Positions 33,907 through 51,702 of a stretch of 64,000 nucleotides of DNA are shown here, one piece after another. Under the pieces are notes generated by a model. That model ran no database searches and had not been told where the DNA came from. It saw nothing but the letters and a program-made list of their open reading frames with translations. Within the stretch, counting starts at the first letter, position 1. Each line of letters starts with the position of its first letter. Position numbers and translations under genes: made by a program. The DNA lies in contig JAFXXC010000006.1 of the NCBI GenBank assembly GCA_017542485.1, positions 1 through 64,000 of the forward strand, read 5' to 3'. The DNA is from Acholeplasmatales bacterium (GTDB taxonomy: Bacteria; Bacillota_I; Bacilli_A; Acholeplasmatales; Anaeroplasmataceae).

Positions 33907-36900
33907 TTAGAATTTTGAAATTACATTTTGAATAAATTGTAATTGCTTTCTTATCCATGGAACTAATCCCTGGAAGAACTTCATTAGTGGTATAGATAAT
34001 GCACAAAGCATTAACAAGAATATCTTTGCATTAATAGATAATTCTGTTACCATTCCACCCTTCATAGTAACAATATTATTACTTGAAATTTGATAATCAG
34101 TAACTATTCCACCTAATATCAAATAATTTGAATTATTCTTTCTTGGAGATAATTCGTTTCCAGTATATTCGTATGATGTATAATATCCATCAATAATATA
34201 CCTACCACTAGTTGTAACTTCTACAGTTGGAGCGATAGTTGCTGTATCAATAGATAATGTACTTGCCTTTGTAATAAGATCATTATCTACAATTTGACTA
34301 AATGAATAAACATTTGCATATGAGCTTGTTGAAGCAGTTGTAAATGAAAGAGTTAAAGATAACAAGTTAGTTCTACTACTAAACAATGAATCATTTCCCA
34401 ATACATCATTAACATCTATAGGCTTACCTACTGTAATATCAACTAAAGAATCACCTGTAGAGCCAGAAACAACTGCATATGAGAATGATCTATAATCATT
34501 AGTTGCAAAATCCTTTATTGCAAAATCAGAAACTAATGTTAATTTTGTTTCATCATTAATATAATCATTTCTTACCTTATACACTTCTTTAGTATCAGGA
34601 TAATATATGTATCTAAACAATACATCTCCTTCTCCTTCAATATTTTCGACTTTAAACAATGTATATCTCTTTTTATCAGGATAATCCTTTGATACACTTT
34701 CAGAAGCTCCATATAATTGGAAAATATTTATACCAGTATCTACTGAATCAAAGAATAATTGATATCTTTCGTCATTTGTAACTGTCTGACCAGAACTTGT
34801 TGTACTCTTAACCAATCTATCTCCAGAAGTTGTAATCTTTGGTAAAGAAACCTTATATGGTTCTTTTGAAACCTCTCCATCATTTGATGTAGCATAAATT
34901 GGTTTGCCATTAATTAATAATTCCAATGTTTCAGGATTAATTTTAACAACAAGTTTTTCACCTTGAATATATTGAGAGTTTACTGCTTGATATTTATATT
35001 CAGTAGATTGAACACCGTTAATAATATATTCACCATCTTTTAACTCAACTGTTGGTAAAATCTTATATTGTCTAACAGCATCAGCTTCCTTATAATTTCC
35101 ATAAGGAATTGTGAAATTATAGTATGAATTAGATTTAGTTAAAGTTATATTTAAAGGAATAAGTTGACTATCACGTTCAATAAACAATAAGCCATTCTCA
35201 TCTACTTTTATATCTTTTTCTATTCCTTCATAGAATGTAGCATTATCTACTTTATATCCGCCTGCATAAATATGACCTTTATTATCATAACTTAATTTAG
35301 GGAATATTAATTCCTTATCTATTCTAGTACCATTAATACCATAATAATATTTACCATCAGTAGTATTAAGGTGACCTGTTAGATTTGTTGTTGTGGCATT
35401 GTTATTAACCTGTAATGAAATTACTTGACCATCAACAACATAGAAATTATCTTTACTTATTTCTACCTTAGGATATTTAGAAATATATTCTGTTGTATAA
35501 TTCTTTGAATAATATTCAAATGGACTAAACAATGGTCTAAATTCAAGTAATTGTGGCAACACAAATATTGCAAATAGGAATACTGAATAACAAACTGTAC
35601 AAAGTACTTTTCGAATAGTAGTAAATGGTTTACATGCTTTAAATAGAACCATTAAACATGTATGTGTCGCGGCTATTACTATAATTGTAGTATATGAAAT
35701 GTTATCTAAGTTCAAACTGTTAGATAATCCAAATACAACCAATGACATTGTTAATATAACGAGAGCTCCAGGGAGAGCTTTTTTAATTACATTCGGCAAG
35801 AATTTACCTTGAACCGGATTGTTATTAGGTTCATTAACTAATATCAATGATGGAATACCTATTGCCAATACATCTATTAAAATTAATTGTACTGCAGAAA
35901 TAGGATATGCACCTGTAATCAATGCTTGAATTGCTAAGAATAATGAGAATATTGTCTTTGTTAAGAATAATGATGCTACATTTGTAACATTGTTTATAAC
36001 TCTTCTTCCTTCAGCAACAACAGAAGGCATTGAACCAAAATTAGAATCTAATAATACTAAATGTGATACATTTCTTGCTGCATCAGAACCAGAACCTAAA
36101 GCAATTGAACAATCTGCCTCTCTTAATGCAAGAATATCATTGACACCATCACCAGTCATGGCAACAGTTAATCCTGCAGATTGAAGTGTTTGAATAATTA
36201 GCTTTTTTTGACTAGGTGATACACGTCCAAATACAGTATATTTTAATGCAGCAGATACAACTTCTTGATCTGTCATACCATCTAAAGAAATATACCTTTC
36301 TGCACCCTCAACACCTGCACGTTGACTAATCTTAGATACAGTAATAGGGTTATCTCCTGAAATAACTCTTACTTGAACTCCAGATTCCTTAAAATATCTA
36401 ATTGTCTCAATAGCGTCAGGTCTAATATTATCCTCTATCAATATCATTGATACAACTTCAATAGGACCTTTAGGCAATTCCTTACCAGAAATAGAACCTT
36501 CAATATGTGCTAAACATAAAACTCTAAATCCAAGTTTTGCATATTTTTCAACATCTTTACTAACTTGCTTGTAGCTTTCACCTAATACAAATTCAGGAGC
36601 ACCTAATACAAATGTTCCAAACTTATCAAATGTTACAGCTTGATATTTTCTTTGAGAAGAAAATGGTATAGCACCAGTATGTCTAATTCTTTTACCTAAG
36701 CCAAATTTTGAAATCAATGCTTGGCTTGTCATATTTGTATCCTGAAGTGCATTTAACATTGCAGATACTACATTTTTAGTTGCCAAACCATAAACTGTAT
36801 TATAATCTATAACATTTTTAACAACCATTGTACCATCTGTAATTGTACCAGTTTTATCCAAACAAATACAATTAACTCTAGCAAGCATTTCTATACAATA

Positions 36901-38133
36901 TAATTCCTGAACCAATACGTTCCTTTGTCCAAGCCTAATTACACCAACATATAGTGCAATAGATGACATTAGGAATAATCCTGAAGGAATCATACCAATC
37001 ATAGCACCAGCTGTTTTTCTAATTGATGTTGCCCATTCCATTCCATTTTTCAAAAACATGATCATAAATAATGAAACACCTATAACAATAACAGGGATGG
37101 ACATTACTTGAATAATTCTATTTAAAGATATTAATAAGTCACTCTTTGGCTTTTTATATACCTTAGCTTGATTACTTAATTTTTCAATATAGTTGTTTTT
37201 ACCAACCTTATCTACTCTTGCGCTACATTTTCCAGATACAACAAATGAACCTGAGAATAATGCATCTCCTGGCTTTTTTACGATGGCATCTGATTCACCT
37301 GTGATTAATGATTCATTTACTTCAATTTGACCATCAAGTACAACTGAATCTGCACATATTTGCTTTCCAGATTCAAGAATAATTAAATCATCTAATACTA
37401 CTTCATTTACAGGTATTTCTTTAATTACTCCTGCACGCTTTACTACAGCATATGGAGCACTCATTAAAGATAATTCATCAATCATCTTTTTAGCTTTAAT
37501 CTCTTGAACAATACCAATTGTAATATTAACAACTACTATAACTAAGAATGCTAAATCTGTTATAGCACCTACAGATATTAAGAAACCTGCAATAATGAAA
37601 ATAAGTATATTAAAGAAAGAAACAATATTTGAAAAGAAAATTTGAGCTATAGATTTACTCTTTTTCTTTCCGCTTTCATTAACTTGTTCATCTAAAATTC
37701 GTTGCTCAACAACTTCTAGTGGTAAACCTGTTTTAACATCTGTTTCATATCTTACCAAAGTAGTTGGATGCTTTTTAAGATATTTACGGTGGGCTTTTAT
37801 TTTCTTTTGTTTAATTTTTTGTAGTTTTGCTTTTTCCTTTTTTTCAGCCTTTTGTTCTTTTTTCAATTCATTTTCAGCCTTTAAAGGAATTTCTTCTTTA
37901 ACCACAACAGAATCAGGATTAACAGGAATTTGAATATAGTCGTCTTCACTATTTTCAATTATATCATCTTCTTCATCTTCTTCTGATTCTATAGTCATAT
38001 TTGGCCCATTATCGCCATCAGCAAATTCACTTGGTGATGTTTCATCAGCAACTAAATTTTCATTAGAGTTAGATTCAAGATATTCACTTAATTCGTTTTC
38101 ATCTAAATCATCTAATTTTGAATCTTTAGTCAT
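33907..38133 (-). CDS. P-type cation ATPase with a very large extracytoplasmic insertion
   Basis: 1,408 residues. An acidic N-terminal tail (1-80) and a Lys-rich helix (85-125) precede a P-type ATPase core (about 125-870). The core has TGES (278-281), the phosphorylation motif DKTGT (426-430), GDGVNDILAL (661-670) and helices in the usual order. It resembles the CtpE-like cation ATPase group. After the ninth predicted helix (about 841-865), residues 871-1367 form a soluble Thr/Tyr/Asn-rich region. A final helix (1368-1388) and a basic tail close the chain. Normal relatives have only a short loop there. By topology the insert faces outside the cell. Start at 38133 is chosen from AAGGAG 8 bases upstream; it overlaps mrnC by 8 bases. 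Ion specificity cannot be read; calcium or magnesium is a guess. Confidence 0.85.
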   Translation of the reverse strand: MTKDSKLDDLDENELSEYLESNSNENLVADETSPSEFADGDNGPNMTIESEEDEEDDIIENSEDDYIQIPVNPDSVVVKEEIPLKAENELKKEQKAEKKEKAKLQKIKQKKIKAHRKYLKKHPTTLVRYETDVKTGLPLEVVEQRILDEQVNESGKKKSKSIAQIFFSNIVSFFNILIFIIAGFLISVGAITDLAFLVIVVVNITIGIVQEIKAKKMIDELSLMSAPYAVVKRAGVIKEIPVNEVVLDDLIILESGKQICADSVVLDGQIEVNESLITGESDAIVKKPGDALFSGSFVVSGKCSARVDKVGKNNYIEKLSNQAKVYKKPKSDLLISLNRIIQVMSIPVIVIGVSLFMIMFLKNGMEWATSIRKTAGAMIGMIPSGLFLMSSIALYVGVIRLGQRNVLVQELYCIEMLARVNCICLDKTGTITDGTMVVKNVIDYNTVYGLATKNVVSAMLNALQDTNMTSQALISKFGLGKRIRHTGAIPFSSQRKYQAVTFDKFGTFVLGAPEFVLGESYKQVSKDVEKYAKLGFRVLCLAHIEGSISGKELPKGPIEVVSMILIEDNIRPDAIETIRYFKESGVQVRVISGDNPITVSKISQRAGVEGAERYISLDGMTDQEVVSAALKYTVFGRVSPSQKKLIIQTLQSAGLTVAMTGDGVNDILALREADCSIALGSGSDAARNVSHLVLLDSNFGSMPSVVAEGRRVINNVTNVASLFLTKTIFSLFLAIQALITGAYPISAVQLILIDVLAIGIPSLILVNEPNNNPVQGKFLPNVIKKALPGALVILTMSLVVFGLSNSLNLDNISYTTIIVIAATHTCLMVLFKACKPFTTIRKVLCTVCYSVFLFAIFVLPQLLEFRPLFSPFEYYSKNYTTEYISKYPKVEISKDNFYVVDGQVISLQVNNNATTTNLTGHLNTTDGKYYYGINGTRIDKELIFPKLSYDNKGHIYAGGYKVDNATFYEGIEKDIKVDENGLLFIERDSQLIPLNITLTKSNSYYNFTIPYGNYKEADAVRQYKILPTVELKDGEYIINGVQSTEYKYQAVNSQYIQGEKLVVKINPETLELLINGKPIYATSNDGEVSKEPYKVSLPKITTSGDRLVKSTTSSGQTVTNDERYQLFFDSVDTGINIFQLYGASESVSKDYPDKKRYTLFKVENIEGEGDVLFRYIYYPDTKEVYKVRNDYINDETKLTLVSDFAIKDFATNDYRSFSYAVVSGSTGDSLVDITVGKPIDVNDVLGNDSLFSSRTNLLSLTLSFTTASTSSYANVYSFSQIVDNDLITKASTLSIDTATIAPTVEVTTSGRYIIDGYYTSYEYTGNELSPRKNNSNYLILGGIVTDYQISSNNIVTMKGGMVTELSINAKIFLLMLCALSIPLMKFFQGLVPWIRKQLQFIQNVISKF

Positions 38134-38518
38134 TTTCATCACTCCTTATCTTTATAGAATAATCTATTAATTCTTCCATTCTATCCTTTTGACCATTCAA
38201 ATACAAATAGCCAATTACAGCCTCAAATCCAGTAGCATCTAAATAATCTTGTATACTTATGTTCTTTCTAACGCTATGAACATGAGAATTTCTTCCTCTT
38301 TTAAAAATTGTTAATTCTTCATCACATAAAATGTTATCATTTATCAAATGATGAACAATATCAGCTTGTGATTCTCCACTAGTAAAGATTATAACATTCT
38401 TATGAAGATCCTTTACTTTATTGTAACCTTTGCTTAATACGTATTCTCTAATATATACTTCATAAACAGAATCGCCAATATAAGCCAAAGACATACCATT
38501 CATTAATTTTGCATCCAT
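38126..38518 (-). CDS. mrnC: Mini-ribonuclease 3
   Basis: 130 residues: an RNase III catalytic domain without the double-stranded-RNA-binding domain, as expected for MrnC. The motif LAYIGDSVYEVYIR gives the acidic active-site residues (Asp16, Glu20), and ATGFEAVIGYLYL supplies the second acidic helix. In Bacillus the enzyme trims 23S rRNA ends. The position directly after cysS, overlapping by one base (TAATG), is the conserved Firmicute arrangement. The gene itself overlaps the ATPase gene by 8 bases. Confidence 0.94.
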   Translation of the reverse strand: MDAKLMNGMSLAYIGDSVYEVYIREYVLSKGYNKVKDLHKNVIIFTSGESQADIVHHLINDNILCDEELTIFKRGRNSHVHSVRKNISIQDYLDATGFEAVIGYLYLNGQKDRMEELIDYSIKIRSDEND

Positions 38519-39846
38519 TAAAGAATTTTCCTATCTACTAGCATATTACGATATTTATCTGCATTTTCGAAATCTTTATTTTCTCTTGCTTTATTCCAAT
38601 TAGTATAAATCTCTAATTCTTCATCAGACATAGGATTTACAAACAAATCGATTCCTAATACATCCATTATTTTCTTAAATGTATTGAACTTTGAAACAAG
38701 ATTATCATAATCCTTAGATCTAAGTAATGTATTAATTTCCTTAATTAAACCACTAATTAATGTTAAAACATTTTGAACATTAAAATCTTGATTCATATAT
38801 TCTTTAAAGGCTTCAATATCTTTATCTGATAAAGCATCAGATTTAATACCTTTATATTGTAAATCATATAATACTTGCTTATATGTTCTTTGCCATTTTT
38901 CATATTCCTTTTTATATTGATTAAATAAATCATCACTATAAGAAATAATACTACGATATGGGCTGAATAAAATTAATGATCTTAAAATCATTCCTTCTAC
39001 TTTAGATGCTAAATCCTTAACATAAATTACATTACCTAAAGATTTACTCATCTTTTCCCCTTGAAGGTCAAGTCTACCAACATGAATCCAATATTTAGCT
39101 AAATGATTATGGTATAAAGCTTCAGATTGAGCTATTTCGTTTTCATGATGTGGAAATTTTAAATCCATTCCTCCACCGTGAATATCTATTTCATTTCCAA
39201 ATAATCTATGATTCATTACAACACATTCTGTATGCCATCCAGGTCTTCCTTCTCCAAATGGTGAATTCCACTTAATACCTACATCAGTTTTTTTCCATAA
39301 TGAAAAGTCAAGTGGGTTTTCCTTCTTATCATTAACTGATATTCTTGCACCACTTTCCAAGTCTTCAGAAACTTGATTAGATAATACACCATAATCTTTT
39401 ACACTATTTACTCTAAAGAAAACATCACCATCAACATTATATGCATTACCGTTTTTAACTAATTCATCAATAAAACTTGTCATTTCATTAATATAATCAG
39501 TAGCATGTGGAATTAAATCTGGCTTATTACTACCAACCTTTTTTACTGCATCGAAATATGCATTTTCATAAAAAGTAGCTATTTCTTTTTCTGTTTTTCC
39601 TGTTTCAATTGCTTTATTGATTATTTTATCATCAACATCTGTGATATTTGATGCATAAGTTACATCATATCCTAAAAATTCTAAATATCTTTTCATCATA
39701 TCGTAGAAGATTACAGGCCTTGCATTTCCAATATGAATGTAATTGTAAACAGTAGGTCCACATACATACATATTAACCTTATTACCATTAATTGGTTTAA
39801 ATTCTTCTAACTTATTTGATAATGAATTATAAATAACTAGTCCCAT
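38518..39846 (-). CDS. cysS: Cysteinyl-tRNA synthetase
   Basis: 442 residues. MYVCGPTVYNYIHIGN contains the zinc-binding Cys29 and the HIGN motif (38-41). Other marks are SNITDVDDKII, GWHTECVVM and HHENEIAQSEA, which hold further zinc ligands, and EKMSKSLGN. It loads cysteine on tRNA-Cys. It heads a three-gene transcript with mrnC and the P-type ATPase. No T-box is visible in the short upstream gap. The assignment is secure. Confidence 0.97.
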   Translation of the reverse strand: MGLVIYNSLSNKLEEFKPINGNKVNMYVCGPTVYNYIHIGNARPVIFYDMMKRYLEFLGYDVTYASNITDVDDKIINKAIETGKTEKEIATFYENAYFDAVKKVGSNKPDLIPHATDYINEMTSFIDELVKNGNAYNVDGDVFFRVNSVKDYGVLSNQVSEDLESGARISVNDKKENPLDFSLWKKTDVGIKWNSPFGEGRPGWHTECVVMNHRLFGNEIDIHGGGMDLKFPHHENEIAQSEALYHNHLAKYWIHVGRLDLQGEKMSKSLGNVIYVKDLASKVEGMILRSLILFSPYRSIISYSDDLFNQYKKEYEKWQRTYKQVLYDLQYKGIKSDALSDKDIEAFKEYMNQDFNVQNVLTLISGLIKEINTLLRSKDYDNLVSKFNTFKKIMDVLGIDLFVNPMSDEELEIYTNWNKARENKDFENADKYRNMLVDRKIL

Positions 39847-39896: not shown

Positions 39897-41516
39897 TTAT
39901 TTATTTAAATATCCTTTAACAACATCACCAAAGCCATCTAAGCTTATTCCGTCACTCCACTCAACTAAATTTGTTACTTTTGTGGCACTATCTTTATTTT
40001 CAGCAACAGTATTACCTGTAAATAATACTTGAACATCGTTACCATCAATAGTTTGAGTTGATGACGCATATACCTTAATTCCTTCTTCAACTGGTTTATA
40101 AATACAATCACTAATATTAGCAATAATTGGACGAACAACACCAACAAAACCACCAATATGTGCATAGTACTTATCATCACTAGTAGATGTAGTAAATAAG
40201 TCATTTGAAGCGGCATCAACGTGCTCTGAATTTCCTGCATAAGCAGTTATACTAGCATTAGCTAAGCATTTCTTAATATTCATTGAACCATTATTGTTAC
40301 ATCCAACAAAACCACCAACAGCAATGTGTGATTTAACTGAGTCTGTTGAAACTGTACTATCAGATGCAACTGTAACATTCTTTGTAATTGTAATATTTGC
40401 ATTAGCATATGAATCATATACTAAGCTTGGTGATGAAATATCTCCTGAGAAACCACCAACATGTGTATATCCATCGTTTGATGTGAACAATGTAACCTTA
40501 ATTGCTCCACTTCCGAAACACTTTCCTGCAAGTAATGTTACTTCTTCACCATTATATGTTGTTTTTCCAACTGAACGGTTATTATCATTTCCTAATTGAC
40601 CTGCAAACAAACCAACATTTGTCTTATATCTTGATTGAGTAAATTCAATATTAACACCTGTTGCTGTAACATTTTCAAATGTAGATGTAGTTGCTATACC
40701 AGTAACAGCACCACAATTAATAGTTGCACTACTATTTCCTTTTACCTTGAAGTCAACATTTGTAATTGTGATATTATTTACTATTGTACCTTCTGCTTGA
40801 CCAATTAAAGAACCAATACCAGCGTTTGATCTACCAGTTGAGTAATCTGCTGATATATTATCTAGTTTTAAATTTTTGATTGTTGCATCCTTTGTATAAG
40901 TAAATAATGCAGTTGCAGAAGTAGTTAATTTAACATTTTTAATTGTGTAATTTCCACCATCAAATGAACCTTTAAACATATTTGATGAAGTAATACCATT
41001 ATCTAATGTTTTGTCAGTAAAATCTAAGTTATTCTTTAAAACATAATGAGCAGTTGGATTACTACCGATTGCATTAAATTCTTCTACTGTTGAAATTCCA
41101 ATAGCTTCCTCATCAGTATCACCTGCATTAGATGTTGTAGCTTCCAAAGTAGTAATTACTTCTGCATAATCTTGATATGTAACAATTAATTTGTACAAAT
41201 ATTTAGTGTTTTTAGTTAATCCAGAAAACTCAACATCATCTGCTTTAGTATAAATATCATTAGAAAAAGTTAATGTTTTTTGATCTTCAAAAACCTCTGA
41301 ATTATCGTCACCATAACTATATTCTTTTATAGAAACAGTAGCTGTATTATCTTTTAAGTGCTCATTTTCAGCAAATGTAGCAGTTATTTTTATTTTTGTT
41401 GTTGAAGCTGTATATTCCATGTTAGCAACGACTCCACTTTTAGAGCCACATGAAGCTAATACAAACATAAATCCAGCAACTATTAAAAATGCGAATAATT
41501 TTTTAAAAACCTTCAT
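39897..41516 (-). CDS. Surface lipoprotein with Fn3-like and GLUG-type repeats
   Basis: 539 residues. The signal peptide ends in VLASC, with lipidated Cys23. A fibronectin-III-like domain follows (about 30-130; LTKNTKYLYKLIVTYQDY). From about 150 on there is a beta-helix-like region with at least five GLUG-type glycine motifs: IGSLIGQ, VGLFAGQ, VGGFSGD, VGGFVGC and IGGFVGV. Such repeats occur in adhesins and secreted carbohydrate-active proteins. No catalytic motif is seen and no partner is adjacent. A role in binding host or plant polymers is a guess. Ribosome site GAGG, spacing 7. Confidence 0.72.
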   Translation of the reverse strand: MKVFKKLFAFLIVAGFMFVLASCGSKSGVVANMEYTASTTKIKITATFAENEHLKDNTATVSIKEYSYGDDNSEVFEDQKTLTFSNDIYTKADDVEFSGLTKNTKYLYKLIVTYQDYAEVITTLEATTSNAGDTDEEAIGISTVEEFNAIGSNPTAHYVLKNNLDFTDKTLDNGITSSNMFKGSFDGGNYTIKNVKLTTSATALFTYTKDATIKNLKLDNISADYSTGRSNAGIGSLIGQAEGTIVNNITITNVDFKVKGNSSATINCGAVTGIATTSTFENVTATGVNIEFTQSRYKTNVGLFAGQLGNDNNRSVGKTTYNGEEVTLLAGKCFGSGAIKVTLFTSNDGYTHVGGFSGDISSPSLVYDSYANANITITKNVTVASDSTVSTDSVKSHIAVGGFVGCNNNGSMNIKKCLANASITAYAGNSEHVDAASNDLFTTSTSDDKYYAHIGGFVGVVRPIIANISDCIYKPVEEGIKVYASSTQTIDGNDVQVLFTGNTVAENKDSATKVTNLVEWSDGISLDGFGDVVKGYLNK

Positions 41517-46056: not shown

Positions 46057-49000
46057 TTATTCAGTAGGGAAAGTAATATCAATCCAATAGAAATAGTTAT
46101 TGCTTGAACATACTATTTCAATAGTTGTCTCTTCAGTACAATCAATTATCTTATGTGCTCCTATTTCACTTGTAAGACCTGACACAGATTCTTTGTTGAT
46201 TGTATAATTTACTCTATAATTACCGTAGATATCAATATGTGCACCAGATGCAACTTTGAATTTTAATTTACCCCCTACTACACTAGAATCAGTTGCTTTA
46301 TTAGGCGTAATTGTTGTTGTATTCTCTAATTGATTATTATCAACATATGATTGATATGTAGCGTGGTCAGCATCACCAAATGCTATTTTTCCCTCTGTAG
46401 TTATAGTATCAAGAACAATTGGTGCAGTAACAGTAATTGTTTTTAATGCTGATTGAGTAATACCATCTTGGCTAATTAAAGATATAGTTATTATTCCATC
46501 TTTTGTCGCTACATATGTTACACTACCATTATTTGCAGGTACAGCTTGGTTAATTCCATCAATAGCAATTCCACCCCATTTACCATTAATGAAGAAACCA
46601 CCTATTACTACTGTAGATCCATTTTTAACATTTAACTTAATTACACTTTCAGATGTAAGTTTTAAGTAAGGACTATTATCTTTACAACCTTCTAAATAGA
46701 TGTAATCGTCACAATTATTTCCTTTAGAAGCATAATCATAAGAATATGATTTTTCAATTAATTTGATAGTCTTTTGTGGTGTTTCAGCAACAAATGAAAT
46801 TACATTTGTTCCAAAAGTATATGTGTATGTTCCTGTACCAGAAGCTTCATATGTTGCTGTATTATTTGAAATAGAATAACTACTATCTGATAATACTGGT
46901 AATTCTACTTCTATTTTATCTACTGGATTTGTACATCCAGTTGCTATACATTCTTTAACAGCTGAACCCTTTGATTCGAATGTTGGATTACTAATTGTCC
47001 ATTCAGTAGCATAAACATGAATATGTTGTCCTTCTTCTAATTTTGGAGTTTCACCAGTAAATTGATATGTTACGCCTTCAAGAACAATAGTATAAATTCC
47101 TTCGCCTTTTTCTGTAGTTGTTGCTGGAATTGTTGAAGAAACACTATATCTATCATCTGTTAATATCGGTAATATTACCTCAACCTTATCTATAGGATCA
47201 TTTTCACAATCCAAACATTCTTTATATGCTAATCCTGTGCCATCTAAAGTAGGAACAGTATATTGCCATTCTCCATAAATATGTTCATGAACTCCAGGTG
47301 TAGATCCGTCTAATTCAAATCCACTAAAATATATTCCTGTTTGACCTGCAAGATCATCAATTGTAATTGTTGCTTTACCATCTTTATAAGTGATTGTTGC
47401 ATTATCTTGACATCCATATCCACTTCCAAACCAATCTACTGAAACTGTTCCGGCCTTATTAAATTTGATAACAGTTTCAAGTTGAACTTGAACAATATGC
47501 TTAGATGCTTCAATACGATATTTACCAAAAATAGTTATATCACCATTAAATAGAGAATCTCCCTCAGGTGCACTATCAGCATTTTGTCTTTCTGCAAATT
47601 CAGTAAAATCATATGATACTGGAACCAATGTTCCAATTGTACCATTCCATGCTTTAGAATATTCAAAATTGCCATTTTTCTTAGCAAAAATAATAGAGAA
47701 ATCTTTATAATTGTTTGAATCACCTAAAGATACTATTTTACATAGATTATCAATTACTCCAGGAGTTGTCTCACTTAAAGCACCCTCACCTGAATTATTA
47801 TATTCAACTAATTGTGATGGTGTTACAGTAGATGCTGAAGACATTTTTGTATATCTAGTATTTTTAGGATCAGAACTACCATATGGTGTTTTAGAATATG
47901 CACTAGAGATATTAGAATTAATTACAGCCATTCGCATATTATCTTTCCAGAAACGTCCTAATGATACTGTACCATCCAACGTATTAGAATCTGCTGTAAA
48001 TGTACATTCATCAAATATATATCCATACTCAATTAAACTTGAAGTAGATCCATTATTATCAGAACCCATTGTTGCGACTACATAACCACCATTTTTTGAA
48101 TCATTTGCTCCAATTGTTTTTAATGTACAATTCTTAAAATATGATGTGGCTGTTGTTCCAAATACATAATCTGTTCTTCCTTCGATGAAGCAATTAGTAT
48201 AAATATGTCTTCCTACTTGTGAATATAAAGTATCATGATAACCTGAAAATCTAACATTATCGAATACTGCTTTATCAGCTTGCACTAAACAAGCAACAGC
48301 TTGTGTTTGTGCACTTCTTGTTTTATCAGTATTAATACTTTCTGCTAATATTTTTGATTCATTAAATCTTGCATTTGTATTCCAATAGTTTTGGAATGTG
48401 ATATTATCTGCATAAAAGCCAGTTGCATTTTTTCTAATTGATACTGATGCTCCACCATCTGTTGAATAACCTACTGTTAATGAATTAGGAGTTCTTACTT
48501 CAGCGAATAAATCATATTCAATGATTGTTTTTGAGGCATCTGTATCCTCACCATGAAGCCTAATATTTGGAATATCAAATTCTACCTTTTCAAAATATTT
48601 ACCAGCTTTAACATTAATTACTTTATCGCTGTTATCAGAAGACCCTAATAATTTAAATACCATTACAGCATCATTTATTCTATTTACAGTTATATTATTT
48701 CCTTCTACTTTAGGTGTAGCATTTGAATCTACTGTAACTATCGCAGCTTCTTTATCTACTCCAGTAAAATCTAATACTGTAATATTATATGAAACTTCTT
48801 TATTTCCATAAGAAATCTTTACTTCTTTTACACCTGCTGATGTCATATCAGGGGCTGTAATCTGAGTATCTGATACTGATAATAAATCAATAGATTCAAC
48901 TCTATCTATATTCTTTTTAACCTTTAATGCTAGATTTGTTGTATTAAAAGTATCTCCAACCTTAAATAGTTTTTGTAATAATTTTGTTTCACGGTTATTT

Positions 49001-49458
49001 GCTTGAATATGATCATATACTAATATTTCTTTAATAGAGTCGTTATCTACAACTACTTTTTCTTCTTTATATCCACATATAGTACATACTCCATTTTCAT
49101 CAAAATTATGATTTTCTACACCATGAATTAATTCGCATCCATCAATTGTACATTCATGCCAGTGATTTTTATCATCATAATTCCAGTCATCGCTCCATAT
49201 ATGATTTGGTAAAACTTGTTGATTATTTGTATCTTCATTTTGTGTAGTAGTTGTAGTACTACTTCCACTATCAGATGTTGATGTAGTTGTTGGAGTAACT
49301 TGAGTTTTAGTTGTTGTTGGAGTAATCTCAGTTGTAGTGGTATTTACTACGTTTGTCCCTGAAGTGTTTGATGGTGTTTCTTCATCACAAGCTGATAAAG
49401 ATATAACTCCTAACATTCCTGTAACAAGTGCTGCTAATTTTATAATTCTTTTTTTCAT
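46057..49458 (-). CDS. Multidomain pectinesterase lipoprotein (carbohydrate esterase family 8)
   Basis: 1,133 residues. The signal peptide ends in LSAC (Cys24). A Thr/Ser-rich stalk (30-75) follows, then a Cys/His segment (HECTIDGC, CTICGY; 101-129). A CE8 beta-helix lies at about 235-620 with Gln386 (QAVA), Asp409 (GYHDTLY), Asp430 (RTDYVFG) and Arg502/Trp504 (LGRFW), the residues that demethylate pectin. His408 replaces the usual Gln of GYQDTLY. Further on come jelly-roll-like modules (about 625-730 and the C-terminus). Between them are two related repeats with paired Cys (KECLDCENDPIDKVEV and KECIATGCTNPVDKIEV). It probably acts with the CE12 enzyme encoded 15 bases upstream in the same transcript. 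Confidence 0.88.
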   Translation of the reverse strand: MKKRIIKLAALVTGMLGVISLSACDEETPSNTSGTNVVNTTTTEITPTTTKTQVTPTTTSTSDSGSSTTTTTQNEDTNNQQVLPNHIWSDDWNYDDKNHWHECTIDGCELIHGVENHNFDENGVCTICGYKEEKVVVDNDSIKEILVYDHIQANNRETKLLQKLFKVGDTFNTTNLALKVKKNIDRVESIDLLSVSDTQITAPDMTSAGVKEVKISYGNKEVSYNITVLDFTGVDKEAAIVTVDSNATPKVEGNNITVNRINDAVMVFKLLGSSDNSDKVINVKAGKYFEKVEFDIPNIRLHGEDTDASKTIIEYDLFAEVRTPNSLTVGYSTDGGASVSIRKNATGFYADNITFQNYWNTNARFNESKILAESINTDKTRSAQTQAVACLVQADKAVFDNVRFSGYHDTLYSQVGRHIYTNCFIEGRTDYVFGTTATSYFKNCTLKTIGANDSKNGGYVVATMGSDNNGSTSSLIEYGYIFDECTFTADSNTLDGTVSLGRFWKDNMRMAVINSNISSAYSKTPYGSSDPKNTRYTKMSSASTVTPSQLVEYNNSGEGALSETTPGVIDNLCKIVSLGDSNNYKDFSIIFAKKNGNFEYSKAWNGTIGTLVPVSYDFTEFAERQNADSAPEGDSLFNGDITIFGKYRIEASKHIVQVQLETVIKFNKAGTVSVDWFGSGYGCQDNATITYKDGKATITIDDLAGQTGIYFSGFELDGSTPGVHEHIYGEWQYTVPTLDGTGLAYKECLDCENDPIDKVEVILPILTDDRYSVSSTIPATTTEKGEGIYTIVLEGVTYQFTGETPKLEEGQHIHVYATEWTISNPTFESKGSAVKECIATGCTNPVDKIEVELPVLSDSSYSISNNTATYEASGTGTYTYTFGTNVISFVAETPQKTIKLIEKSYSYDYASKGNNCDDYIYLEGCKDNSPYLKLTSESVIKLNVKNGSTVVIGGFFINGKWGGIAIDGINQAVPANNGSVTYVATKDGIITISLISQDGITQSALKTITVTAPIVLDTITTEGKIAFGDADHATYQSYVDNNQLENTTTITPNKATDSSVVGGKLKFKVASGAHIDIYGNYRVNYTINKESVSGLTSEIGAHKIIDCTEETTIEIVCSSNNYFYWIDITFPTE

Positions 49459-49473
49459 ATTATTTCCCCTTTT

Positions 49474-51702
49474 TTATTCGTAATATTCAATAATTACATA
49501 ATACATATAAATATTAGAACCAGCAGATTTAAGTCTAAATGTTCCTGCATTTTCAATTACATTTGTAATTTTTGTTTGTGAAGCTGTCATTTCAAAACTA
49601 TATATCTCTGAAGCTTTATCTTTATTTTCTACTTTAATTGTTCTATTATCAGATCCACCACTAACACCAACAATTGTTACTTCACATTTTCCTGTTACTT
49701 CAAATTCTACGTAATAATCTTTATTACCACCTAATAAAATTCCGGCTGTTGTTGCAGAATATTCATTTTGATTTAATTCAAATTTAGTTGAATTTTTACT
49801 TACTTTAGCAAGCTTATTATCTGTTGTGTTATCTACAAAAGTAAATGTATGACCTTCTGATTCTACTGTTTTACCACCTAAAGATGTGTTATTTGTTAAA
49901 TCAGAAAATTGACTTGCTGATAAAACGGCTATTTTAATTGCTTGTGGTCTTGATGACTTAGCTTTTTCTTCATAAGCTAATAAATCGTTATAGTTAGTAA
50001 CTTGAGCTCTTAAATCATAATTTAATGATTCATATACTTCTCTTGCTAATGCACAATAACCAACCCAAGTTTCCCAGTTTGTAGAATTAATACTATCAAG
50101 AGAACCCTTTGCCTTTAAATCATCTATTGCTTTTATTGCAACATCTGGTTCAACATATTTTCTATTAGGGTCAGTTGGATTTATTTCTTCAAATAATGAC
50201 TCTATTTCATTTGCTTTTGAAATTGATAATCTATTTGATGGATTAATAAACTTATAAGGAACTTCCATAATATGCTTTACAAAATCAAAATATTCTATAG
50301 TACCACCGTTATTTACAGTAATACCTTCCATATCATACTTAATAATTGAATCTGCGACATAACATGCAGTTAAATATGCACCATATTTGTTATAATGTGT
50401 TCCTTCCATTTTCTGATATCCAGAATTTGTATTTTTGTATGCACTATCGTAGCCTGTAGGCCATGCACCATTATTGATATCATTTGGAACAATTGCCATC
50501 ATAAAATCTGAAAATTCTTTTGTGGCTGTTTCAAGCATATTCTTTGAGAAAGTAAAATTATCAATTAATAGACAATTTTCTTCTTCGGCTAATTGCTTAA
50601 CTGCTTTAACATATGCAAAATCTTCTCCATGTCTTCCTTCACCGCCTTGAATTTTGCCATTTGAATCAAATGATACTCTTGCTACAGGAGTACATAATAC
50701 TGGAGTTGCTCCTTTACTTCTTGCAAAATCAATATACATTTTTAAATACCCTTTATAAGTGCCCTCGCCGTACTCATAATATGTAGCACCATATTTTGCT
50801 ATTTCTGTTTTTGTTTTTGCTGACATATCGGCTGGTAAATTTGAAGAAGTACTTGCCTTTTCTTGTGGAATTACAACTGGATAAATACCATTTTCATCAG
50901 GTGTACCAAGTGGAACCATTCTTTCATATTTGTAACTAGTGTCATCAAAATTCTTTGTATCATCATCGTTATGACCAAACTGTACAAATAAATAGTCTCC
51001 TGCTTCAATAGTATCTTCTATTGATTTTCCACCATTTTCTGAGAATGAATATTTAGCACCATCAGTTGGAGTGAATAATCTATCTTCGTTAATGAATGAT
51101 CTTGATGATCTACCACCTCTTGCTGCATTTACAACTTTTATTTCTTCATCGAAAAACCAACTAAAATACTGACCCCATCCTCCTATATATTGTTCATCTG
51201 CGTATGTTTGTACTGTTGAATCTCCAGCTAAATAAATAGTAGGTGTTTTATTTGTATCATAATCGACACCTTTATATTCCTTCCATTTTGCGTATAATGT
51301 AATATCACTATTTACAATATTATTAAAATCATATGGAGTTGTTAAAGCTTGATCAGTATACCATCCTTTAAATTTCCATCCGCTTGCCTTTGGATTAGAA
51401 GGTTCAACTGCTTTACCATTTATGTCTACAGCCTGAGTTTTTGGAGAAGTCCCATGACCTAAAGTATCATATTTAACCTCAAAATATTGTTCTTGTTGAG
51501 CCGGCTGAGTTGTAGATATAGTAGTTGTAGTTGTAGTACTACTTCCACCACCAGTTGTTGTAGTTGTTGTAGGGATAATAGTATTAGTTGTTGTTATATT
51601 ACTAGTAGTTGTAGTACTAGTAGTCTCATCACATCCCATAAGTCCAAATAGCGCTAAGCTTGAAGCACCAATAGTTAATAATTTACCAATTCTTCTTTTC
51701 AT
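49474..51702 (-). CDS. Rhamnogalacturonan acetylesterase-like lipoprotein (carbohydrate esterase family 12)
   Basis: 742 residues. The signal peptide ends in LMGC (Cys24), followed by a Thr-rich stalk (28-68). An InlB-type B-repeat (about 72-140; FKGWYTDQALTTPYDF, then ITLYAKW) precedes an SGNH hydrolase (about 155-455). Catalytic blocks are GDST (Ser162), GGRSSRSF (196-203), GHND (243-246) and EGTHYN (His436). Acetylesterases of this family usually have Asp three residues before the His; here it is Glu433. A helical region (about 500-590) and a beta-rich C-terminal module, possibly carbohydrate-binding, follow. The family removes acetyl groups from the rhamnogalacturonan I backbone. The CE8 gene follows 15 bases later. 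Confidence 0.85.
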   Translation of the reverse strand: MKRRIGKLLTIGASSLALFGLMGCDETTSTTTTSNITTTNTIIPTTTTTTGGGSSTTTTTTISTTQPAQQEQYFEVKYDTLGHGTSPKTQAVDINGKAVEPSNPKASGWKFKGWYTDQALTTPYDFNNIVNSDITLYAKWKEYKGVDYDTNKTPTIYLAGDSTVQTYADEQYIGGWGQYFSWFFDEEIKVVNAARGGRSSRSFINEDRLFTPTDGAKYSFSENGGKSIEDTIEAGDYLFVQFGHNDDDTKNFDDTSYKYERMVPLGTPDENGIYPVVIPQEKASTSSNLPADMSAKTKTEIAKYGATYYEYGEGTYKGYLKMYIDFARSKGATPVLCTPVARVSFDSNGKIQGGEGRHGEDFAYVKAVKQLAEEENCLLIDNFTFSKNMLETATKEFSDFMMAIVPNDINNGAWPTGYDSAYKNTNSGYQKMEGTHYNKYGAYLTACYVADSIIKYDMEGITVNNGGTIEYFDFVKHIMEVPYKFINPSNRLSISKANEIESLFEEINPTDPNRKYVEPDVAIKAIDDLKAKGSLDSINSTNWETWVGYCALAREVYESLNYDLRAQVTNYNDLLAYEEKAKSSRPQAIKIAVLSASQFSDLTNNTSLGGKTVESEGHTFTFVDNTTDNKLAKVSKNSTKFELNQNEYSATTAGILLGGNKDYYVEFEVTGKCEVTIVGVSGGSDNRTIKVENKDKASEIYSFEMTASQTKITNVIENAGTFRLKSAGSNIYMYYVIIEYYE

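Follow-up and report, generated by a model that had tools for sequence, protein, structure and literature searches.

The DNA window analysed in this study, a stretch of 64,000 nucleotides from an Acholeplasmatales bacterium, contains an intact gene for a P-type ATPase with a repetitive insert of some 500 residues in the loop between its last two transmembrane helices, M9 and M10. The position of the insert is conserved among orthologs, and the same architecture occurs in a second clade. Bacterial P-type ATPases are usually pictured with short outward loops only; extracellular parts of large size are familiar chiefly from eukaryotic pumps, in the form of separate subunits. The source is a gut bacterium related to Anaeroplasma, in which an ATP-driven ion pump thus bears a domain of this size. 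Our preferred reading, to which we give about an even chance, is that of a CtpE-like cation pump carrying a fused, subunit-like and beta-rich surface module in the M9-M10 loop. An outward module that is fused into the pump, and that apparently arose on two or more occasions at one loop, would allow one to ask, as in a natural experiment, why pumps come to have ectodomains; the bacterial members of this pump class have received little study. As the insert is carried by a cultured type strain, it is open to experiment.

The ATPase gene and its core

The ATPase is encoded by a single open frame with an AAGGAG ribosome-binding site 5' of its ATG (Table 1). A domain search detected E1-E2 ATPase and HAD hydrolase domains, and the TGES, DKTGT and GDGVND motifs are all present. 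By motifs and domains the protein belongs to the P-type ATPase superfamily, and its core is complete, as the preliminary description had stated. The hydrophobic segments are compatible with ten helices, preceded by a charged N-terminal tail with a Lys content of 16.9% over 39 orthologs.

Table 1. Features of the ATPase locus, in window positions
Feature	Residues	Position	Strand	Basis
P-type ATPase gene with M9-M10 ectodomain insert	1408 aa + stop	33907..38133	-	Single open frame
N-terminal charged cytoplasmic tail, up to M1	1-158	37660..38133	-	Sequence; Lys-rich
TGES, actuator domain	278-281	37291..37302	-	Motif in sequence
PSGL in TM4	383-386	36976..36987	-	PEGL in Tsukamurella and Monoglobus relatives
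DKTGT, phosphorylation motif	426-430	36844..36858	-	Motif in sequence
GDGVND, hinge motif	661-666	36136..36153	-	Motif in sequence
Transmembrane helix M9	843-866	35536..35607	-	Hydropathy; kept in insert-less orthologs; AlphaFold helix
Predicted extracytoplasmic insert, all-beta, ~498 residues	867-1364	34042..35535	-	Hydropathy, orthologs, AlphaFold
First repeat unit of insert, membrane-proximal		35314..35472	-	Repeat profile A4, E=7.2e-13
Last repeat unit of insert, membrane-proximal		34087..34230	-	Profile A4, E=3.8e-18; unit itself in profile
Transmembrane helix M10, then short basic cytoplasmic end	1365-1394	33952..34041	-	Hydropathy, insert-less orthologs, AlphaFold
mrnC (Mini-ribonuclease III-like), conserved upstream neighbour, overlaps ATPase start		38126..38518	-	Pfam PF00636; synteny
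cysS (cysteinyl-tRNA synthetase), conserved neighbour		38518..39846	-	Named from sequence; synteny across order

Assignment of the pump class

The core shares 35-43% identity with P-type ATPases from Monoglobus, Enterococcus, Collinsella, Pseudonocardia and Tsukamurella, which belong to the HAD-IC family where annotated, and about 28% or less with P2A- and P3A-type pumps. In the tree, the window protein groups with these HAD-IC-type ATPases with a support of 100/100. It thus falls with CtpE-like ATPases and apart from P2A and P3A pumps in a tree that does not contain CtpE itself, so that the connection with CtpE is made through motifs and annotation. The class in question is known as CtpE, family 23 or 'P6' (PMC5615198, PMC10654040). 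One of its features is that TM6 lacks Asp at the ion-binding position, with Ile in CtpE (PMC10654040); indeed, the aligned position is Ile in the window protein and Asp in a Leisingera P2A-type pump. Characterised CtpE, by contrast, has PEGL in TM4 (PMC5615198, PMC10654040), and PSGL is found in the window protein and its Acholeplasmatales orthologs. By phylogeny, then, the pump is CtpE-like (P6, family 23) rather than a standard CtpE. Since the Glu of CtpE TM4 is Ser here, the ion of CtpE cannot be transferred to this pump. The same genome encodes a second ATPase of 904 aa (L127, G000:C48:75430-77754) that is 38% identical, has MPSGL in TM4 and carries no large insert.

Topology and composition of the insert

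The preliminary description had placed a domain of about 497 residues (871-1367) between the last two helices, and this agrees closely with the boundaries found here. Residues 868-1370 are rich in Thr (9.6%), Ser (9.4%), Tyr (8.8%) and Asn (7.6%), and contain neither Cys nor Trp. In the window ATPase alone, Cys accounts for 0 of 494 residues of the insert against 7 of 432 in the cytoplasmic domains (p=0.005). Over 39 orthologs, the frequencies are 0.40% in inserts and 1.58% in cytoplasmic domains, with a Fisher p of about 3e-28 that has to be read in the light of the kinship between these sequences; in some relatives, exclusion of Cys from the insert is incomplete. Obligate anaerobes tend to keep Cys out of their exported proteins (PMC12453122).

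The insert almost certainly faces outward, and the case for this placement is strong, because M1-M10 are homologous to the helices of solved P-type ATPases and M9 and M10 are conserved in insert-less orthologs; depletion of Cys and the surface-type repeats described below point the same way. The M9-M10 loop of P-type ATPases with ten helices lies on the extracytoplasmic side. The extracytoplasmic location and the surface-protein character that had been proposed for this domain are both supported by these lines of evidence, and nothing was found pointing to the cytoplasmic placement that would have contradicted them.

Fold and repeats of the insert

AlphaFold models, computed from 23 related sequences, predict an all-beta insert. 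The insert is mostly confident and all-beta in the near full-length protein of A. bactoclasticum, and likewise in a model of residues 690-1408 of the window's ATPase, where most of its blocks reach a pLDDT of 75-92 and confidence drops around residues 1050-1060, 1225-1235 and 1240-1265; with pTM values of 0.46 and 0.61, both models have a modest global confidence. The insert is built, on sequence evidence, of divergent repeats of about 50 residues, with the consensus PxIxxSxxGYYVIDGxxTxx...DxYLxIxGxxTDY. A profile made from the last such unit of the inserts (A4) finds the first unit, at the opposite end, in the majority of inserts and, in several, also a unit in the middle. Both ends are conserved above the middle. 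Within the genus, average identity is 34% for the insert and 72% for the core, and the length of the insert ranges from about 300 to 500 residues among orthologs.

The window insert has no Pfam match at E<=1, no match in PHROGs or among PDB sequences, and only a chance-level match in NCBIfam. With the model as a query, high-probability Foldseek matches were P-type ATPase chains only, through the membrane part; matches to a beta-propeller or a fibre fold were improbable. No further copies of the insert were found in the window's own genome. A viral origin was also considered and rejected: the insert has no relative among viral contigs, nor has an insert of the second family (f19, see below) a phage match. 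Weak repeat matches in a helicase and an S41 peptidase were judged to be chance.

The insert repeats resemble, at the sequence level, tryptophan-type (DUF4988-like) surface repeats. In relatives, a surface-type protein and a giant open frame contain similar Trp-type repeats, and hhalign scored the insert repeats against them at 68% with a hand-picked set, which is suggestive. The giant frame (L192, G073:C4:62000-79785, Anaeroplasmataceae) has 12,480 codons with many Trp-type hairpin and leucine-rich-like repeats, and probably encodes a giant surface protein. In a separate case, a 717-aa ABC exporter (L154, G020:C31:8631-10721) contains an in-frame insert of about 94 residues with the YxIxGxxTDY repeat of the pump insert, located between Walker A and the Q-loop; it is absent in close relatives and was seen in one genome only, which is 64% complete.

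Orthologs and distribution

A search of other genomes for the same insertion, which the preliminary description had recommended, found homologous inserts in 48 of the 55 genomes of the family by profile search (44 by single-sequence search), including the cultured type strain Anaeroplasma bactoclasticum ATCC 27112, as well as inserts in f19. The named insert-bearing relatives are Anaeroplasmataceae or Acholeplasmatales bacteria. Each full-length ortholog examined consists of one open frame, about 1190-1420 aa long, and has its insert in this position; the Anaeroplasmataceae insert-bearing pumps form one clade in the core tree (100/100). Insert-less orthologs, with 11-33 residues between M9 and M10, are found in one genus of Anaeroplasmataceae (G032) and in sister families. 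The insert profile gave no match in the order's other families (105 genomes). In a sample of 395 genomes of the class it matched nothing beyond the family, but it also missed the f19 inserts.

The gene order cysS-mrnC-ATPase is kept in nearly all orthologs whether the insert is present or absent, so that insert-bearing and insert-less pumps are true orthologs. An assembly error, a frameshift or a fusion of two genes, which had been named as what might undo the original observation, has a negligible probability: dozens of independent assemblies, that of the type strain among them, agree on a continuous frame in which M10 follows the insert. Judged from these sequences, ATPase and insert are one intact gene and a fusion artefact is excluded. 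Upstream of cysS, the window also encodes a 539-aa lipoprotein-like protein with a GLUG motif (39897-41516), with syntenic homologs across the order that occur independently of the ATPase insert; a direct link between the two was rejected, as the homologs lie near the operon in insert-less families too.

A second family with an insert in the same loop

Stronger evidence on where the repeats come from was given by a class-wide survey of these pumps, which revealed another family, f19, in which orthologs of 1149-1184 aa from four genomes carry 263-275 extra residues as their M9-M10 loop, with clear GxWxIxGxxTxxKA repeats. Two further f19 genomes have incomplete pump copies with the same kind of insert. 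The DUF4988 model (PF16378) matches one f19 insert with E=1.1e-6 and 29.0 bits, under the cut-off of 30, and three of the four inserts at E<=0.1; neither the window insert nor the f19 insert reaches the gathering score of this family. With the Anaeroplasmataceae unit profile, each of the four f19 inserts is matched (E 2e-7 to 3e-10). Conversely, the f19 unit profile matches several Anaeroplasmataceae inserts with E down to 2e-10 and the window's own insert weakly (E=0.0075), the best values in shuffled and reversed controls being only 0.05 and 0.24.

In the core tree, insert-bearing and insert-less f19 pumps fall together, and so do the insert-bearing pumps of Anaeroplasmataceae and insert-less ones of Acholeplasmatales, both groupings with high support. 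The insert architecture was probably gained at least twice, because the core tree separates the two sets of insert-bearers. Two gains are the simplest reading of this tree and the case for independence is fairly strong; less simple would be a passage of just the loop from one lineage to another, or a single ancient gain followed by many losses. The separate origin in a second lineage suggests that the insertion is useful.

Relationship to known systems

Like the CtpE or P6 ATPases of family 23, the window pump has a core that groups with actinobacterial and Firmicutes members, ten helices, and Ile in TM6 where P2 pumps have Asp; it differs from them by its PSGL, the M9-M10 insert and the long charged N-terminal tail. 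A large extracellular domain on the M10 side of the pump is also seen in Na,K-ATPase with its beta subunit and in PMCA-neuroplastin, where the contacts of NPTN are with TM10 and those of beta subunits with TM7 and TM10 (PMC6127144). These are separate polypeptides with a helix of their own, whereas the domain described here would be a loop of the pump itself. Indeed, it lies in the same chain rather than in a separate single-span subunit, and PDB sequence search and Foldseek found no relation to Na,K-ATPase beta or neuroplastin. In P4-ATPases a large extracytosolic domain accompanies the pump as well (PMC10654040), but CDC50 is a separate subunit with two helices, and the pumps are eukaryotic lipid flippases. 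As to DUF4988-like, tryptophan-type hairpin repeats (GxWxIxGxxTxxKA), the likeness lies in the f19 insert close to the PF16378 cut-off and in the Anaeroplasmataceae profile that matches f19; unlike these repeats, the window insert has Tyr or Phe for Trp, lacks a Pfam match and sits inside a transporter. In the open-licence papers searched we found no description of a P-type ATPase with such a built-in ectodomain, so that within these papers the claim that the architecture has no precedent stands.

Possible function of the insert

In the mechanism that we propose, a surface repeat module would have entered the short M9-M10 loop in the ancestor of most Anaeroplasmataceae, and would stand outside the cell. 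Its conserved membrane-proximal ends may lie against the pump's outer face, its middle would vary like surface-exposed sequence, and the cation would move through M4-M6 as in other P-type ATPases. The module would then be a fused, subunit-like ectodomain adjoining M10, where the beta subunit or neuroplastin dock, and would stabilise or tune the outward side of the pump and present a variable surface. Docking of the module on the pump is put forward tentatively, and the same holds for the transported ion and the physiological role. The repeated use of the loop beside M10 suggests that the outward side of the pump tolerates or benefits from a large module. For pumping itself the insert is not essential, because it evolves fast and is absent in genus G032. 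A wider proposal seems possible but rather doubtful: that these proteins form an undescribed class of bacterial P-type ATPases whose built-in surface ectodomain arose twice, independently, at one loop in two lineages, serves the pump as an accessory subunit fused to it, and couples pumping to the cell surface.

The main rival to a fused subunit-like module is surface display, in which the pump is a mere membrane anchor and the module an adhesin, shield or decoy unrelated to transport. We consider this clearly less probable than our preferred reading, albeit a serious contender. It would fit with the likeness of the repeats to repeats that relatives have in a surface-type protein and in a giant ORF, with the middle being the most variable part of an insert of such different lengths, and with insert-less orthologs in other genera and families; however, in both cases one and the same loop in one pump class received the module, rather than any of many membrane proteins, and the membrane-proximal ends are relatively conserved.

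A role as a sensor or capture domain, in which the module would control the pump by binding a ligand, be it the transported ion or another, appears improbable. Its location at the outer face of the pump and weak, sub-threshold matches of some f19 inserts to carbohydrate-binding families are consistent with such a role, but no conserved signature of a metal or ligand site was recognised in the insert, and its fast-evolving middle speaks against a fixed binding site there. Least likely among the functional questions, a repeat-rich segment might persist without function in a permissive loop: the one-off insert in a cytoplasmic domain of the ABC exporter indicates that such segments can enter other proteins, yet retention across several genera of the family and in f19, with conserved ends and fold, makes neutrality very unlikely.

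Cell wall and neighbouring surface genes

Binding of a wall polymer by the insert, which the preliminary description had raised, was not borne out, inserts being present in genomes with and without penicillin-binding proteins. The transpeptidase domain PF00905 had no match in the window's genome (75% complete) or in several near-complete insert-bearing relatives, and was found in 21 of the 55 family genomes, many of them insert-bearing. A link between the insert and wall loss was likewise rejected, as the presence of penicillin-binding proteins does not track the insert. On these gene contents, the Anaeroplasmataceae seem to mix walled and wall-less members. Elsewhere in the window (46057-51702), two large genes adjoin each other, one for a pectinesterase with a bacterial Ig-like domain and the other for a protein that has a Listeria-Bacteroides repeat and matches GDSL lipase below the threshold; their products are possible surface enzymes degrading plant polymers.
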